Assembly: GCA_905478165.1 (NCBI GenBank)
Contig: CAJQHK010000011.1
Coordinates: 1 to 51,170, forward strand
Length of the DNA: 51,170 nucleotides
Direction: 5' to 3'
From: an uncultured Rickettsiales bacterium
GTDB taxonomy: Bacteria; Pseudomonadota; Alphaproteobacteria; Rickettsiales; UBA1997
A program made the translations under genes and the position numbers. Of the stretch, positions 13,101 through 51,170 are shown in pieces. A model generated the notes under the pieces. It was not told the origin of the DNA and searched no databases. It worked only from the letters and a program-made list of their open reading frames with translations. Every line of letters starts with the position of its first letter. Position 1 is the first letter of the stretch.

Positions 13101-13208
13101 GGAGGAATGTTGTTTATGTTATTGGGGCTATTTATTGTTCCAGTTTTATTTTTCTTTTTTGAAAAAAATACCATTCCAAAAACTTCTTATACCAATTCCC
13201 ACCTTTAA
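10104..13208 (+). CDS. cusA: Heavy-metal RND efflux pump (CusA/CzcA family)
   Basis: This 1034-residue inner-membrane transporter uses the proton gradient to expel metal. It has the RND architecture: a first helix (YVIIAFVFISILAVYSFA), a large periplasmic loop, a TM2-6 block with GTMVDMGIIMTENIYSRL carrying the relay Asp and Met residues, a second loop, and a TM8-12 block with PLLMTTATTIFALLPIMWS. These motifs place it in the heavy-metal (HAE-... CusA/CzcA) branch and not among drug pumps. Copper/silver preference is inferred from the adaptor. The last residues (YTNSHL and the stop) are encoded by the end of a dispersed repeat element, so the native C-terminus was probably altered. Confidence 0.92.
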   Translation: MLDKFINNIIKHRIYVIIAFVFISILAVYSFATVKIDAIPDIGENQQIIFTDWSGVSPKDIEEQITYPLSNLMQGIPGIKEVRGMSAFGFSVIYVIFKDDIDFYWSRTRILEKLTQAQNILPKGVIPTIGADATGLGQIFWYSVENKKDNPNPKSLADLRSIQDWYVKFHLQSVDGVSEVASIGGFVKEYQIDIDPLQLFARDLHFSKLIKAIKNSNIDVGAEVIEKGEREIIVRGLGFFKSIEDIKNVVIDVKNNTPIYVKDVANVHLGSSFRRGVLYSGEREIVGGVVASRFGENSKEVIDKIENKMLKISKGLPEGVEIKSFYNRKDIIQKAISTVYKSIIEEIIIAVCVIMFFLFHFRSSIIISLTLPLGVGISFILMKIFGIDSNIMSLAGIIVAIGTMVDMGIIMTENIYSRLSKNPKDRIKSIINSTKEITPAIVTAIATTIITFLPIFFLQNAEGKLFTPLAYAKTFALIGSVLVAIFLIPVLSVFFLKGKLKPIEENKISCKIIQIYKPILSMILNNPKRFLTIPIIIVLVGGFSYKQLGNEFMPQLNEGEILYMPTTVPGISITKAKELVFQSNKIIESHEAVESAIAKIGRADTSLDPAPISMVETIIKLKKSAKTKDIYKIMRELDQMVQIPGFINSWGFPIQTRIAMISTGIKTQIGIKIFGDDLKKLEHIASHISKEVEKIEGAYGVYAEQITSKPYIEFDIDRVKASRYGINTGTINQILQTAVGGMAISKFYHGRERYNIRVRYKKELRDSIEELKRVLVPSPIGSHIPIGQLANIRIINDSATINSEDGFLRSTVLLNVRDRDLVAFVNEAKKIVSENIDLPKGYSIKWAGEYENQVRSSKYLQILVPLSILINLLILFFNFKSLRNSLIILSAIPISIAGGMILLWFSGFNLSVAVWVGFIALFGIAVDNGVVMMAYINEEMKKIKPNSILELKRVIIEAGSRRIRPLLMTTATTIFALLPIMWSTSIGSEIIKPMAIPVLGGMLFMLLGLFIVPVLFFFFEKNTIPKTSYTNSHL

Positions 13209-13360
13209 AGCAGTTTTTTTCGAAATATTTTTATTCATAAATTATTAAAAAATGCCCGCCCTATGTTAATAGGGTGTAAGGCTTTTTGATGATTTAAGGA
13301 TAAAAAGATAAAGAAAAAATCTGTCTTAACTTGTGTATTTTAAAGATGGGAATTGGTATT
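13189..13360 (-). repeat. Complete copy (E1) of a dispersed element with terminal inverted repeats
   Basis: About 172 bp bounded by ATACCAATTCCCACCTTTAA on the left and its imperfect reverse complement TTAAAGATGGGAATTGGTAT on the right. The interior contains a CCCTAT-TAAC-ATAGGG hairpin and T-rich tracts. The whole element aligns, inverted, with the copy upstream of gltX; by eye most positions agree. It occupies the convergent gap between cusA and the oligopeptidase gene and overlaps both stop codons. It encodes no transposase, so MITE-like is the best description. Confidence 0.85.
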
Positions 13361-15386
13361 AAACACCTTCAAGATACAATAAAAATGCATAATCGAGCGC
13401 CACTTCCTTTAGAGAATTAAACCTTCCTGTGGCACCACTATGACCAGCTTCCATTTGCGTCTTCATTAAAAGTAAGTTTTTATCCGTCTTTAACTCTCTT
13501 AATTTTGCCACCCATTTTGCTGGCTCAAAATATTGAACCTGAGAATCATGAAGTCCGGTTGTAACCAAAATATTCGGATAATCTTTTGCCTCAATATTGC
13601 TGTAAGGACAGTAAGATTTTATGTAATCATAATATTTTTTTTCATTTGGATTCCCCCACTCATCATATTCAGACGTGGTTAGAGGAATTGAGTCATCCAG
13701 CATGGTAGTTAGTACATCAACAAAAGGCACGGCAGAAATAACGCCATTAAATAAGGATGAGTCCATATTAATAACCGCTCCAATCAACAAGCCTCCAGCG
13801 CTTCCGCCGTATGCATAGAGATGATTTTTGGAAGTGTAGTTATTTGAAATTAAATATTTACCAACATTAATAAAATCTTTGAAAGTATTCTTCTTATTCA
13901 GCATTTTACCATCCTCATACCAAGATCTTCCCATTTCAGAGCCCCCCCTGATGTGTGCAACAGCAAAGATAAATCCTCTATCTAAAAGTGACAAACGGCT
14001 AGAGCTAAAAGAAGGAGGAATGCTATGACCATACGAACCATAACCATAAAGCAATAAAGGAGTTTTGGAGTTTATTTTGGTATTCTTATTATAAACCAAA
14101 GAAACGGGAATATCTTTACCATCGTAAGATTTAACAAAAATTCTTTTTGTTACATAATTTTCTTTTCTAAAATCACCCAAAATTTCCTGCTGTTTTTTTA
14201 ACTCCTCACTTTGATTCTTGATAGTATAATCGTAAATCGAAGATGGAGTTGTCATGGATTGATATCCATATCTTAATATGCCACTTTCATAATCATGATT
14301 AGTTCCAATATATGAGACATAAACTTCTTCCTTAGATGGTAAATAAAAATTTTCTAAAGAATCTCTTTTAAAAATATTAATCTTATTAAGTCCATTTTCT
14401 ACCTCAGAAAGAATTAAATAATCTTTGGAAATATCAACATCTTCTATTAAAATATCAGGGCGATGCGCAATCACTTCGCGCCAATTTTTTTTATTGGTAT
14501 CTTCTAAATCAGACTCCATGATACGAAAGTTTTTTGCCTTATAATTTGTTAAAATGTAGAATTTATCTTTAGCATGAATTGGTAAATATTCTAATTCAAC
14601 CTCTCTTTTGTAAAAAATTTTTGGCTTCGCTAAAGGTTTGTCTGCAGAAATAATTCTAACCTCATTTGAAGTTTTGTGAGAAGAGTGAATGTAAATAAAA
14701 TCCTTCGTTTTTGATTTAGAAACGGAAACATGATAAGTATCGTCTTTCTCAAAATAAACCTCCTGATCTTGCTTTTGCTTTTCACCAATTTTATGCAAAT
14801 AAACGCGATCAGATCTTAAGGTAGTTTTGTTTTTATCGGTGTAAAACAAATAATTATCTTCAGCAAAAACTGCATTTCCAGTTACTTCTGAAATTTTGTT
14901 ATCCAGCAATTTTCCAGTTTTTAAATCCTTAAAAAATATGTCATATATTCTCCTGCCTTTAACATCAACACTGTAAGCCAATATGCTGTGATCACGATTT
15001 AAGGCGTAATTACCAACATTAAAATATTCATAATTTTTTGCCAATTCATTAACATCTAAAAATATCTCCTCCTTAGCTTCTAAATTTTTGTATTTTCGAC
15101 AATAAATTGGATACTGACTACCTTTTTCAAAACGAGTATAATAGTAATAATCATCCTTTTTAGTTGGAAGGCTTTGATCCTCCTCCTTAATTCTGGATTT
15201 CATTTCTTGATACAAATCCTTTTGCAACTTTTCAGTAGAAGCTAACTTTTTTGTAGTGTATTTATTTTCATCCTCTAAATATTTAGTTACATCTGGATTT
15301 TTTTTATCATTTAGCCAATAATAATTATCAATCCTAACATCTTGATGAATCTCTAATTTATGAGGGTTTTTTTTAATTTGAGGCAT
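13359..15386 (-). CDS. ptrB: Oligopeptidase B (prolyl oligopeptidase family S9A)
   Basis: This 675-residue serine peptidase cleaves short peptides, typically after basic residues. An N-terminal beta-propeller covers roughly residues 1-390. The alpha/beta-hydrolase domain has LLLYGYGSYG, AHIRGGSEMGRSWYEDGK and the nucleophile motif YGGSAGG. The Asp sits in GLHDSQV and the His in EAGHSGATGRF. Length matches E. coli PtrB (about 686). No signal peptide is visible, so it is probably cytoplasmic. The TAA stop is formed by the terminal repeat of the adjacent element. A perfect 16-bp inverted repeat lies just upstream of its start. Confidence 0.93.
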   Translation of the reverse strand: MPQIKKNPHKLEIHQDVRIDNYYWLNDKKNPDVTKYLEDENKYTTKKLASTEKLQKDLYQEMKSRIKEEDQSLPTKKDDYYYYTRFEKGSQYPIYCRKYKNLEAKEEIFLDVNELAKNYEYFNVGNYALNRDHSILAYSVDVKGRRIYDIFFKDLKTGKLLDNKISEVTGNAVFAEDNYLFYTDKNKTTLRSDRVYLHKIGEKQKQDQEVYFEKDDTYHVSVSKSKTKDFIYIHSSHKTSNEVRIISADKPLAKPKIFYKREVELEYLPIHAKDKFYILTNYKAKNFRIMESDLEDTNKKNWREVIAHRPDILIEDVDISKDYLILSEVENGLNKINIFKRDSLENFYLPSKEEVYVSYIGTNHDYESGILRYGYQSMTTPSSIYDYTIKNQSEELKKQQEILGDFRKENYVTKRIFVKSYDGKDIPVSLVYNKNTKINSKTPLLLYGYGSYGHSIPPSFSSSRLSLLDRGFIFAVAHIRGGSEMGRSWYEDGKMLNKKNTFKDFINVGKYLISNNYTSKNHLYAYGGSAGGLLIGAVINMDSSLFNGVISAVPFVDVLTTMLDDSIPLTTSEYDEWGNPNEKKYYDYIKSYCPYSNIEAKDYPNILVTTGLHDSQVQYFEPAKWVAKLRELKTDKNLLLMKTQMEAGHSGATGRFNSLKEVALDYAFLLYLEGV

Positions 15387-16747: not shown

Positions 16748-17587
16748 ATGATAAAATTACTAAAAGAAAATAAAACATTTGGCGGGAAGACTAGTTCTTG
16801 GCAACATCTTTCTAAATCTAATGCTGGATTAATGAAATTTTCCACTTTCATTCCAGAATCAAAAAAAATTGATAGCTGTATTATCTGGCTATCTGGACTG
16901 ACCTGTACGGAAGAAAATTTTATCATAAAATCTGGAGTGCAAAAATATTTAAATGGTACAAATACTATGATAATCTGTCCAGATACCTCTCCCAGGGGGC
17001 TTGATCTGCTCGCAGAACATGATTCTTATGATTTTGGCTCCGGAGCTGGTTTTTATGTTAATTCTCTTACCGAAGGGTATAAGGATCATTATAATATGTT
17101 TGATTATGTATCAATTGATTTACATGAGATAATTTTAAAAGAATTCTCCATTCCATCTGGTAATATATCAATATCAGGACATTCAATGGGAGGACATGGA
17201 GCTCTTATTATTGGACTAACTTTTCCTGAGAAATATCACTCAATTTCTGTATTTGCCCCACTCTCCAACCCTATTAATGTTGAGTGGGGAAGGAATGCTT
17301 TTCGAGGTTACTTAGGGGAAGAAAATGAAGATCTTTGGAAAAAATATGATTCTTGTGAATTAATAAAATCTGGCAAGAAACATCCGCGTAAAATTCTAAT
17401 AGACCAAGGAACTCATGATGAATTTACTCACAATCTTTTAACGGAGAATTTAATACAGGTTTGCAAAAAACATGGTCAGCCTATTGAGATGAATTTTAGA
17501 GAAGATTATGATCATAGTTATTATTTTATATCAAGCTTCATTGAATCTCACATTAATTTTCATATTAATGGCAACTCTTATCTGTAA
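16748..17587 (+). CDS. fghA: S-formylglutathione hydrolase
   Basis: This 279-residue esterase-D family serine hydrolase converts S-formylglutathione to formate and glutathione, the step after FrmA. The substrate-loop region WLSGLTCTEENF and the nucleophile elbow SGHSMGGHGA are present. The acid DQGTHDEF and the histidine region EDYDHSYYFISSF complete the triad. Length is standard. The gene directly follows frmA and is convergent with ung. The T-rich tail just after the stop (17591-17606) could aid termination, but there is no clear stem. Confidence 0.96.
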   Translation: MIKLLKENKTFGGKTSSWQHLSKSNAGLMKFSTFIPESKKIDSCIIWLSGLTCTEENFIIKSGVQKYLNGTNTMIICPDTSPRGLDLLAEHDSYDFGSGAGFYVNSLTEGYKDHYNMFDYVSIDLHEIILKEFSIPSGNISISGHSMGGHGALIIGLTFPEKYHSISVFAPLSNPINVEWGRNAFRGYLGEENEDLWKKYDSCELIKSGKKHPRKILIDQGTHDEFTHNLLTENLIQVCKKHGQPIEMNFREDYDHSYYFISSFIESHINFHINGNSYL

Positions 17588-17605
17588 AGCAATTTTTTTT
17601 GATTT

Positions 17606-18316
17606 TTAGTTGGTAGTATTCAGATGTAAAGTGGGTTGCAAAAACCAGTCAATCGGCTTTATATTGTGATTAATAAGATAATTATTAGCTTTAGAAAAGT
17701 GCTTACAACCTAAAAAACCCCTATAGGCAGAAAGAGGGCTAGGATGTGAAGATTCTAAAACCAAATGTTTGTTTCGATCAACATTCATAGCTTTTTTTTG
17801 TGCATGACTACCCCATAATAGAAAAACTAAATTTTTACATTCATCATTAAGTATATCTACCACCTTATCAGTTAGTATTTCCCACCCCCTACCCTTGTGT
17901 GAGGCTGGTATACAATGCTCAACAGTTAATACGCTATTAAGCATTAGAACGCCATTTTTAGCCCATGATTCAAGAAAACCATGGTTTGATTCCTCTAAAT
18001 TAAGATCAGATTTTAATTCTTTATAGATATTTTTTAAAGAAGGAGGTATTCTAACATTTGGCTTAACTGAGAAACAAAGACCGTGAGCCTGATTTTTACC
18101 ATGATACGGATCTTGACCTATTATAACCACCTTTACCTTATTTAGGGGGGTTAAATTAAAACTTGAGAATATTTCAGACTTATCGGGATAAATAGATTTC
18201 TTACTATCATATTCTTTTGTTAAGAAAGATTCTAGTTTTAGTATGTAGTCTTTTTTAAACTCATCCACTAAGTAAGTCCCCCAAATATTTGAGGGGGATA
18301 AATTACTAATATTCAT
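17606..18316 (-). CDS. ung: Uracil-DNA glycosylase
   Basis: Ung removes uracil from DNA in base-excision repair. This 236-residue family-1 enzyme has the water-activating loop GQDPYHGKNQAHGLCFSV near residue 68 with the catalytic Asp. It also has the Pro/Ser-rich IPPSLKNIYKEL, the active-site LLWGSHAQKK and the C-terminal SSHPSPLSAYRGFLGCKHF. Length is typical. It is separated from the upstream minus-strand gene obgE by 281 bp containing a transposase relic, so it is probably transcribed on its own. Confidence 0.96.
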   Translation of the reverse strand: MNISNLSPSNIWGTYLVDEFKKDYILKLESFLTKEYDSKKSIYPDKSEIFSSFNLTPLNKVKVVIIGQDPYHGKNQAHGLCFSVKPNVRIPPSLKNIYKELKSDLNLEESNHGFLESWAKNGVLMLNSVLTVEHCIPASHKGRGWEILTDKVVDILNDECKNLVFLLWGSHAQKKAMNVDRNKHLVLESSHPSPLSAYRGFLGCKHFSKANNYLINHNIKPIDWFLQPTLHLNTTN

Positions 18317-26828: not shown

Positions 26829-27098
26829 ATGACAAATTTAGCAAATGATGGAAAAATTGACAGCGACGCAGCTGGAAAATTAAAAGCTCTTATCGTTGAA
26901 ATTGAAAGATTAGAGGATCAAAAAAAGAAAATAGCAGATGGCATTAAAGAACTTCTTGATGAAGCAAAGTCATTTGGTTTTGACATTAAGGTAATTCGTC
27001 AAATCCTTAAAATAAGAAAAACTGATGATGAACAATTGCAGGAGCAGGAATATTTAATTGAGGTTTACAAGGACGCTCTTGGTATGTCCACAAAATAA
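26829..27098 (+). CDS. gapR: GapR-family DNA-binding protein (DUF2312)
   Basis: This 89-residue protein matches the alphaproteobacterial GapR family throughout: LKALIVEIERLEDQKKKIAD, IKELLDEAKSFGFDIKVIRQ and the C-terminal YKDALGM. In Caulobacter, GapR is a nucleoid-associated protein that binds overtwisted AT-rich DNA ahead of polymerases and supports topoisomerase action. Two long helices, the first strongly coiled-coil, can be read from the sequence. It is probably cotranscribed with rseP. A repeat element separates it from gltX. Confidence 0.93.
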   Translation: MTNLANDGKIDSDAAGKLKALIVEIERLEDQKKKIADGIKELLDEAKSFGFDIKVIRQILKIRKTDDEQLQEQEYLIEVYKDALGMSTK

Positions 27099-27166
27099 TT
27101 CCCAACTATAATTGCAACTAGGTTTAGGAGTGAAAATAGTATAAAGGAAAAAAATATAATAAGTAT

Positions 27167-27340
27167 AGCACCGATTCCCACCTTTGAAACATGCGAGTTA
27201 AAACAGATTTTTTTCTTATCTTTTTATCCCTAAATCATCAAAAAGACCTACAACTTATTAACATGGGGCGGAAATTTTTTAATAATTTATGAATAAAAAT
27301 ATTTCAAAAAAAACTGCTTTAAAGACCAAAATTGGTACTA
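27167..27340 (+). repeat. Complete copy (E2) of the dispersed element; provides the gltX start
   Basis: About 174 bp running from GCACCGATTCCCACCTTTGA (after a flanking TA) to CTTTAAAGACCAAAATTGGT with AC and a TA at the end. It aligns along its full length with the reverse complement of copy E1 at 13.2 kb. Both copies contain ATGAATAAAAATATTTC near the right end; here that ATG (27289) is the gltX start. The TA flanks on both sides would fit a TA-targeting (IS630/mariner-like) origin, which is inference. Confidence 0.85.
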
Positions 27341-28671
27341 TTTGTAGATTTGCACCATCTCCAACAGGATTTTTGCACGTAGGTAATATCAGGGCCGCAA
27401 TCGTAAATTATCTTTTTGCAATAAAAAATAATGGTTCATTTCTTTTGAGATTTGACGACACCGATTTAAAAAGAACTAAGCAGGAATATAAGGAGATAAT
27501 ATTGGAGGATTTAAAATGGCTAGATATCAACCATGAATCACCAATTAGTCAAAATCATCGTCTCGACATATATAAAAAATATCAAGATAAATTACTTCTG
27601 GAAGGTAAGTTATATGAATGTTTTGAAAGTGACGAGGAGCTAAAATTCCAAAGAAAAATTCAAGTCGCATCTGGCCTTAGGCCCATTTATAACAGATCTG
27701 CCTTAAATTTAACAAGCGAACAAAAAGAAAATTATATAAGTCGAGGTTTAAAACCTTATTATCGCTTTTTAATTGACGAAGAGATCGTGGAATGGAATGA
27801 TGGCATTAAAGGAAATATTAAATTTTCTGGTCGACACTTTTCTGACCCAGTATTAATTCGAGCAGATGGCAGTCCTACATATACATTTTGTTCAGTCGTT
27901 GATGACATAGAATTTGGAATCACAAACATAATTCGCGGAGAAGATCATATCACCAATACAGCCGTACAAATAAAAATATTTGAAGCATTTGGTGCTAAAT
28001 TGCCAAATTTTGCTCACTTAGCTTTAATTAAAGCTAATGATGGTAAAATTTCTAAAAGAATTGGAGGTTTTGATATCAAAAATTTAAGAGAAGGAAATCT
28101 AGAGCCTATGACGATTATAAATTTACTAGCTCAAATGGGAACCTCTAATGACATACAAACTTACCGCAATATTGAAGATTTAGCGGAAAATTTTGACTTA
28201 ACAAAGTTTAGTAAATCAGCTACAAAATATAATTTTGATGAGGTCTTAACTTTAAATGAAAAGGTTTTACAAAACTCTACTTTTAACTATATCTCGAAAA
28301 GATTAGAAAATTTAGATTGTAATTTTAAAATTACCGAGGATTTTTGGTTAAAAATTAGAGCAAATATTAGCAACTTGTCTGAGATAGAATGTTGGTGGAA
28401 AATATGTAAAACAAAGATTAGATATAAAAATATTCGAGAAGACCATTTGTTTCTTAAAGAATCCTCCCAACTATTACCGCAAGATCTAAATTCAGACAAT
28501 TCTTGGAATGACTGGATTCAAAGTATTAAGAAATCTAGTGACCGAAAAGGTAAAGATCTTTTTATGCCCCTCAGAAAAGCCATTACTGGTGTCGAACATG
28601 GTCCTGAGTTAAAATGCATAATAACCCTCATAGATAGAGATGAGATTATAAATAGACTATGCTCTCTTTAG
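27289..28671 (+). CDS. gltX: Glutamyl-tRNA synthetase with element-derived N-terminus
   Basis: This 460-residue class I synthetase charges tRNA with glutamate (and, in many alphaproteobacteria, also mischarges tRNA-Gln for amidation). The HIGH-type motif is RFAPSPTGFLHVGNIR, and the KMSKS loop is KISKRIG. The tRNA-acceptor region SPTYTFCSVVDDIEFGITNIIRGEDHITNT is typical. Most GltX proteins begin only three to six residues before RFAPSPTG. Here an extra 17 or so residues (MNKNISKKTALKTKIGT) come from a dispersed repeat element, and no other ATG, GTG or TTG lies in frame before RFAPSPTG. Alphaproteobacteria often carry two GltX paralogues; only one is seen here. Confidence 0.95.
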   Translation: MNKNISKKTALKTKIGTICRFAPSPTGFLHVGNIRAAIVNYLFAIKNNGSFLLRFDDTDLKRTKQEYKEIILEDLKWLDINHESPISQNHRLDIYKKYQDKLLLEGKLYECFESDEELKFQRKIQVASGLRPIYNRSALNLTSEQKENYISRGLKPYYRFLIDEEIVEWNDGIKGNIKFSGRHFSDPVLIRADGSPTYTFCSVVDDIEFGITNIIRGEDHITNTAVQIKIFEAFGAKLPNFAHLALIKANDGKISKRIGGFDIKNLREGNLEPMTIINLLAQMGTSNDIQTYRNIEDLAENFDLTKFSKSATKYNFDEVLTLNEKVLQNSTFNYISKRLENLDCNFKITEDFWLKIRANISNLSEIECWWKICKTKIRYKNIREDHLFLKESSQLLPQDLNSDNSWNDWIQSIKKSSDRKGKDLFMPLRKAITGVEHGPELKCIITLIDRDEIINRLCSL

Positions 28672-33366: not shown

Positions 33367-33480
33367 CAATACCAATTTTTACTTATAAACTATATAAGTT
33401 AAAGAATATTTCTTCTTTATCTTTTTCTCCCAAATCATCAAAAATCCTTACACTCTATTAACGGAATCGCTATAATAACA
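33367..33480 (+). repeat. Partial copy (E3) of the dispersed element
   Basis: From AATACCAATTTTTACTTATA through TTCTTTATCTTTTTCTCCCA to CCTTACACTCTATTAACGG this copies the left two-thirds of E1/E2. The right third with the internal ATG has diverged, and no right terminal repeat is visible. It lies between ftsL and the stop of the methyltransferase gene. Confidence 0.75.
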
Positions 33481-42771: not shown

Positions 42772-42896
42772 GGTATTACATCATTTTCCATCTATAATAC
42801 TGAGTAAATAATGACATGATCTAGCTTTATCTTTTAATCCCCTAATTACCAAAAAGACTTGCACCCTATTAACATGGTGCGGTTGTTTTTTGAAAA
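42772..42896 (+). repeat. Variant copy (E4) of the dispersed element
   Basis: This copy shares TCTAGCTTTATCTTTTAATC, ACCAAAAAGACTTGCACCCT and ATTAACATGGTGCGG with E1/E2 but has its own left part (TGACATGATC), also found in E5. The hairpin arms are GCACC and GGTGC, different bases from E1 (CCCTAT/ATAGGG) but still pairing. A TTGTTTTTT run follows, so it could act as a plus-strand terminator. It lies between asd and hdaA, both minus. Confidence 0.7.
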
Positions 42897-42920
42897 TATT
42901 AATCTTAAAATATTTTGGCA

Positions 42921-51078: not shown

Positions 51079-51170
51079 CTAATACCAATTCCCATCTTTA
51101 AAATACACAAGTTAAGACAGATTTTTTCTAAAATATTCTTCAAAAATCTAAATTCAGCAGATGAATATCT
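51079..51170 (+). repeat. Left end (E6) of the dispersed element, cut by the window edge
   Basis: TAATACCAATTCCCATCTTT, then AAAATACACAAGTTAAGACAG and ATTTTTTC match the outer left 50 bp of E1 almost exactly. After 51128 the sequence (TAAAATATTCTTCAAAAATC) looks like the other end of the element (as in fragment E7), so this may be a deleted or hybrid copy. Confidence 0.7.

Follow-up and report, generated by a model that had tools for sequence, protein, structure and literature searches.

Reading frames carried by MITEs are known to form in-frame fusions with host genes, and the Rickettsia palindromic elements (RPEs) do so unusually often, according to the accessible part of a review (PMC10969869). 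In the part available to us of the paper by Delihas, MITE reading frames fused to host ORFs are reported for ERIC/RU-1, YAPL/RU-2, RU-3 and Correia elements, the ERIC fusions including several conserved protein genes, and the predicted signal peptide of YPO1552 is described as partly MITE-derived (PMC2229807). The RPEs, whose distribution is treated in an article that we likewise saw in part (PMC2635572), resemble the element considered here in being palindromic repeats of ~150 bp, many of which form in-frame fusions with conserved genes unrelated to one another (PMC10969869, PMC2229807). As far as the accessible text of these sources goes, the word “start” is absent from PMC2229807 and “start codon” from PMC10969869. 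Among the titles and abstracts listed in our literature searches, a scope outside which subscription papers fall (the original RPE papers included), we recognised none in which a MITE or insertion sequence provides the start codon of a bacterial gene.

Here we describe a MITE family in the genome of an uncultured Rickettsiales bacterium, and mainly one copy of it in a contig stretch of 51,170 nucleotides (hereafter, the window). From comparison of orthologous genes, we consider it probable (roughly 0.86) that insertion of this element has supplied the start codon and the N-terminus of gltX, the glutamate--tRNA ligase gene, and that this has recurred in other conserved genes. RPE fusions lie within ORFs, whereas the present element replaces the start codon, a distinction of position. 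Many Rickettsiales records are among the GltX relatives of this genome. No ORF of at least 60 aa spans a copy among those with a blastn score of at least 50 (the largest overlap is 101 nt), and the window has 0 Rfam matches at the gathering threshold. In contrast to the MITE fusions in the accessible part of the Delihas paper, a single family here provides the start codon of four conserved genes or more for which orthologues free of the element could be compared. In-frame MITE fusions are thus the known part, and the recurrent donation of start codons to conserved genes is, within the literature covered, a new variant.

The repeat family

The repeat is a palindromic MITE with a 169-bp consensus (computed from 20 copies, among them the gltX copy, E2), found as dozens of copies and fragments in a 1.2-Mb genome of 31 contigs. 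It is a MITE by its size, ends, target duplication and copy number, and it encodes no transposase. In blastn searches of its own genome, E2 yields 47 matches and the consensus 55, while a 73-nt profile of the right end yields 97 at E ≤ 0.5; because the element is palindromic, all these counts contain mirror matches or mirror halves, and weak matches as well. Because only the best-scoring candidates are counted, old copies number at least as many as this census shows. Searched at ≤3 mismatches, a 30-nt stretch of the element gives 20 matches and 0 when read backwards, so the repeat is not due to chance, and an 18-nt core of the ends has 65 matches at ≤2 mismatches against 0 backwards.

The termini are inverted repeats (TACCAATTCCCAYCTTTAAA), and the entire consensus folds back on itself (z −8.25 as DNA and −9.37 as RNA, relative to shuffles). 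Identical TTA/TTA or TAA/TAA flanks surround 9 of the 15 copies that could be aligned end to end; the other 6 differ. Insertion sequences of the IS5 family (IS1031 group) have a 3-bp TNA target, and their MITEs are alike in showing 3-bp TTA/TAA duplications and terminal inverted repeats. Unlike for that group, a parent transposon with the present ends was not found: the genome has 4 PF01609 matches, and the stretches read around them contain no matching pair of ends. Membership, which the TNA duplication alone fits, is a lead only.

The ATG of the right end (ATG#1) is retained in most of 32 aligned right ends, and the consensus frame that it opens (ATG AAT AAA AAT ATT TCG AAA AAA ACT GCT TTA AAG GTG GGA ATT GGT A) is open to the tip. 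Besides E2, the window holds a copy close to the consensus:

13190–13358, minus strand: MITE copy E1, flanked by two convergent genes; identity to the consensus 98%.

E1 (13190–13364, minus strand) and E2 (27163–27337) pair over 175 nt at 85% identity, and the right-end sequence ATGAATAAAAATATTTC is common to both. These figures bear out a sequence-only reading of the window, which had E2 running into the coding sequence of gltX and sharing its right end with the non-coding copy.

The element at the 5′ end of gltX

The features of the locus are as follows, G002 being a relative of the same genus.

26829–27098, plus strand: GapR-like gene upstream of gltX, within the region that has its homologue in the DNA preceding G002 gltX.
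27167–27340, plus strand: MITE copy E2, situated in the 5′ end of gltX; identity to the genome consensus ~86%.
27258–27286, plus strand: weak promoter-like TTAACA-17-AATAAT inside the element; such sites are no commoner than in shuffles.
27289–27291, plus strand: element ATG#1, the putative gltX start; no other start in frame precedes the catalytic domain.
27289–27336, plus strand: element-derived GltX codons 1–16 (MNKNISKKTALKTKIG); codon 17 (27337–27339) straddles the element tip.
27338–27340, plus strand: CTA at the right junction, with TTA at the same place in G002; a presumed, imperfect TNA target duplication.
27289–28671, plus strand: gltX, glutamate--tRNA ligase, 460 aa, above the TIGR00464 cut-off.

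The element ATG at 27289 is the only ATG, GTG or TTG in frame before RFAPSPTG, as the sequence-only reading had it; within the first 80 codons, further ones come only after that motif (codons 28, 52 and 71, counted from 0). The extension in front of RFAPSPTG, which that reading attributed to the element, is indeed element-derived, but its limit has to be moved: the native part begins at ICRFAPSPTG, and only residues 1–16 come wholly from the element. In all, 17 residues stand in place of the MTV of the same-genus relative, a net gain of 14. Protein alignment places the insertion point between codons 3 and 4, and the TTA found there in G002 fits a TNA target, although the triplets that flank E2 (GTA and CTA) are not identical. 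E2 is a single copy, 14% diverged from the consensus, and its fold is lost (z 0.18).

The GltX orthologue of G002 is 75% identical and has neither element nor extension; it starts with MTVICRFAPSPTG (MTVIC), 38 nt past the stop of the upstream gene. Upstream of gltX, the two genomes are homologous over 1198 nt at 73%, a homology that ends 202 nt before the start here versus 53 nt in G002; on our side its limit coincides with the end of the GapR-like gene and is ~80 nt away from the element. A relic of the native start in the left flank of E2 is not supported, since this flank has no significant match to the native start region of G002 (775 of 1000 shuffles score as high). The right-end profile has no match in G002 at E ≤ 0.001, and blastn gives one weak match there (E 7e-4). 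From the other same-genus genome, G001 (63% complete), no GltX orthologue was recovered.

A wider comparison comprised 110 GltX loci (our own, 29 relatives and 80 further ones obtained with an alignment query where a scan of contigs with a single protein had given none, some species perhaps recurring among these 80), of which 104 have the motif and the 6 without it were set aside. The nearest start lies 1–9 codons before the motif in all 103 other loci, and 19 codons before it here. The best-scoring named relatives are Rickettsiales and Alphaproteobacteria metagenome records at ~55–57% identity. Together with the element-free orthologue in G002, these loci support the earlier suggestion that a mobile repeat was captured as start and N-terminal extension of gltX, and the same 17-residue extension was found in no relative so compared.

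The protein matches TIGR00464 as a whole (368.8 bits, with a cut-off of 289.95) and also PF00749. Against G002, dN is 0.163 and dS 1.317 over 446 codons (dN/dS ~0.12), and neutral drift of 14%, the distance of E2 from its consensus, would be expected to leave ~12 stops in the gene, with 0 of 2000 simulations stop-free; no stop is seen over 460 codons. Judged from these substitutions, gltX is under purifying selection and, by inference, functional. Because the genome contains another gltX, whose start is ordinary, the essentiality of the element-started copy is assumed from the enzyme class. In a structure predicted from 26 sequences (mean pLDDT 89.5), residues 1–14 fall below 50 and the remainder is mostly confident, from which the N-terminal tail is probably a tolerated, disordered, lysine-rich addition.

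Initiation and folding of the element

A Shine-Dalgarno core between −18 and −5 is present in 1 of the 35 window ORFs of 120 codons or more, compared with 4.7% in shuffles, an approximate count because the starts used are the longest-ATG ones. Translation in this genome probably begins at AU-rich starts with little structure and, with Shine-Dalgarno cores so few, an AU-rich ATG such as that of the element would plausibly be enough. The idea that the element also brought transcription signals is not supported: the TTAACA-17-AATAAT box (10 of 12 positions matched) is no more than promoter-like, and there are 3 such sites around the element versus a mean of 3.3 in shuffles. A leaderless message is likewise unsupported, because the box predicts a transcription start that lies beyond the ATG. 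As a sign of coding selection in E2, the conserved ATG-AAG segment was rejected, since non-coding copies show it equally conserved.

When folded as RNA, copies above 90% identity (13 in number) have z between −1.95 and −10.2, and the four gene-start copies so examined (gltX, ispE, trpE and the glycosyltransferase gene) have z between −1.22 and 0.34. Four of 8 other copies under 90% identity are also above −1.22, and decay of the hairpin as a condition of capture is only suggestive.

Other genes probably started by the element

The same repeat family appears, from the reading frames that leave its copies, to have done likewise to several other conserved genes of the genome. From the 97 right-end matches we took 61, setting aside mirror halves (with one exception) and the weakest or shortest matches, and followed the sequence outward from all of these but C31:30896. 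In five genes (gltX, ispE, aas, trpE and a glycosyltransferase gene), the only ATG, GTG or TTG codons before the conserved domain are those of the element. ATG#1, for which the sequence-only reading had proposed a genome-wide search, is used by gltX and by ispE, the latter with an extra TTG in the element. For aas, which encodes an acyltransferase/acyl-ACP synthetase, and for trpE, the start is a second one, ATG#2, at 13 nt from the tip. Possible starts of the glycosyltransferase gene are an ATG, a TTG and ATG#2, all within a copy read as shortened. The case of yidD is ambiguous, with ATG#1 in frame and a second ATG at the tip.

Orthologues were compared for gltX, ispE, aas and trpE with the one same-genus genome that has these genes, G002. 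Those of ispE and aas are 72% and 69% identical, both element-free, with MMKITAKSFAKINL in G002 versus MNKSILKKTSLKRRSAIIARSFAKINL here for ispE, and MKFFLQLFFKIK versus MGIGIRQLFKLFFKVK for aas. Upstream homology of ispE extends over 1277 aligned columns (80.5%) and ends 125 nt before the new start versus 49 nt in G002; that of aas covers 865 columns (78%) and ends 86 nt before the start versus 11 nt. The trpE orthologue, also element-free, is 81% identical and begins MKEKIINNL versus MKINIIKKL here, with the element ATG at the native position. The element end of trpE was detected by the profile (E 3e-9), so the origin of its ATG, from the element or from native sequence, is less certain than in gltX, ispE and aas. 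No upstream homology with G002 was found in the 350 nt of its own upstream sequence compared.

In a stricter set of 47 right ends, 25 match the search for ATG#1 and 17 are open past the tip, one of each being ATG#2 of trpE; in the 16 remaining open ends, a run of more than 60 codons occurs in three, those of gltX, ispE and yidD. Seven of 33 left ends have frames open for 42–76 codons past the tip, none of them counted as a gene start. The copies at captured starts are diverged (86–88% identity for gltX, ispE and aas, with trpE and the glycosyltransferase gene detected as profile matches only), and the open frames entered from copies above 90% identity never exceed 62 codons. A trpF ORF and an MbnB-like ORF that touch the element have other starts and were not counted.

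Alternative explanations

One could suppose that the element is nothing but 5′ untranslated sequence, with gltX starting at the non-standard ATT at 27340 (the Ile of ICRFAPSPTG) and keeping a nearly native N-terminus. ATT starts do occur in rare bacterial genes such as infC, and such a start would leave the protein only 3 residues shorter at its N-terminus than the native one of G002. The supposition is nevertheless improbable, for an ATG with an open frame stands in frame 17 codons upstream, and ispE, aas and trpE, which likewise have only element starts, would call for several non-standard starts. Still less probable is that gltX is inactivated, or that assembly of this 31-contig genome went wrong at a repeat and produced a false junction. 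Some contigs do end in or near this family (51083–51128 in the window, C26:12249–12272), and there is the second gltX with its ordinary start; yet E2, single and 14% diverged, is not a collapsed repeat, homology to G002 reaches within ~80 nt of it with the orthologous gene on its other side, and a dN/dS of ~0.12 with 460 stop-free codons speaks against inactivation.

That the extension is ancestral and was lost in other lineages is barely credible: we found nothing in favour of it, the extension matches many other element copies in the genome, and none of the 103 other motif-bearing GltX has its nearest start more than 9 codons off.

A proposed course of events

We favour capture of the start from the element, and infer that it went as follows. 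A MITE-type element would have transposed into a TNA site at codons 3–4 of an ancestral gltX (M-T-V/I-C-R-F-A-P), leaving the native start on its far side. Its right end would have supplied an AU-rich stretch, an ATG and a frame open to the tip, and the insertion was presumably in frame. Ribosomes would now initiate at 27289, in a genome seemingly not reliant on Shine-Dalgarno signals, and GltX would have gained its 17 lysine-rich, probably disordered residues instead of MTV with the enzyme core untouched. Independent repeats of these events may account for ispE (same ATG) and for aas and trpE (second ATG). The simplest reading of the pattern is one of survivorship, where insertions into the early codons of needed genes would persist only with an in-frame element start.

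More tentatively, and with doubts that outweigh our confidence, the family could be a portable translation-start module, with outward starts at both ends (ATG#1 plus an ATG/GTG#2 at the right end, ATG#2 at the left) and one common frame open to the tip. If this were true, any early-codon insertion in the right phase would rebuild a working N-terminus, lysine-tagged with ATG#1; insertion into essential genes would be survivable, new N-termini would spread through the proteome, and the start would act once decay of the palindrome had freed the ATG.

The orthologue comparisons show how needed genes can survive the entry of a non-autonomous mobile element into their first codons, something that one family probably brought about repeatedly. 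This offers a concrete route to new protein N-termini in reduced genomes and, given how rare Shine-Dalgarno signals are here, a natural experiment on the minimal requirements of a start codon. It is also a warning to annotators, since a native-looking start is absent when sought in the element-started genes.

Element copies at gene ends and in related genomes

The stop codons of both neighbours of E1 are associated with this copy. An RND transporter gene (ACR_tran, plus strand) terminates within the element, at 13208; the stop of a prolyl oligopeptidase gene (minus strand) occupies the flanking triplet, 13359–13361. Elsewhere in the genome, the last codons and the stop of a Fur-family gene (L088:963–1403, C8 near 41778) are supplied by another copy. 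Further fragments lie in the window at 17566–17608, 33370–33462, 42828–42915 and 51083–51128, the last at the contig end.

In a genome of another genus of the same family (G010, L180:1516–2256), a related element has its ATG#1 frame open into a nucleotidyltransferase gene, which was rejected as a capture for having its own ATG two bases after the element. Same-genus G001 has stretches whose terminal 30 nt are nearly those of the present element and whose interior is different, some at contig ends (L175, L177, L179, L181, L182, L184). Miniature versions of 55–56 bp, with little beyond the two inverted ends, also occur in the genome (C17:57369–57424, C19:9106–9160 and C4:116578–116632; L117, L118 and L116).
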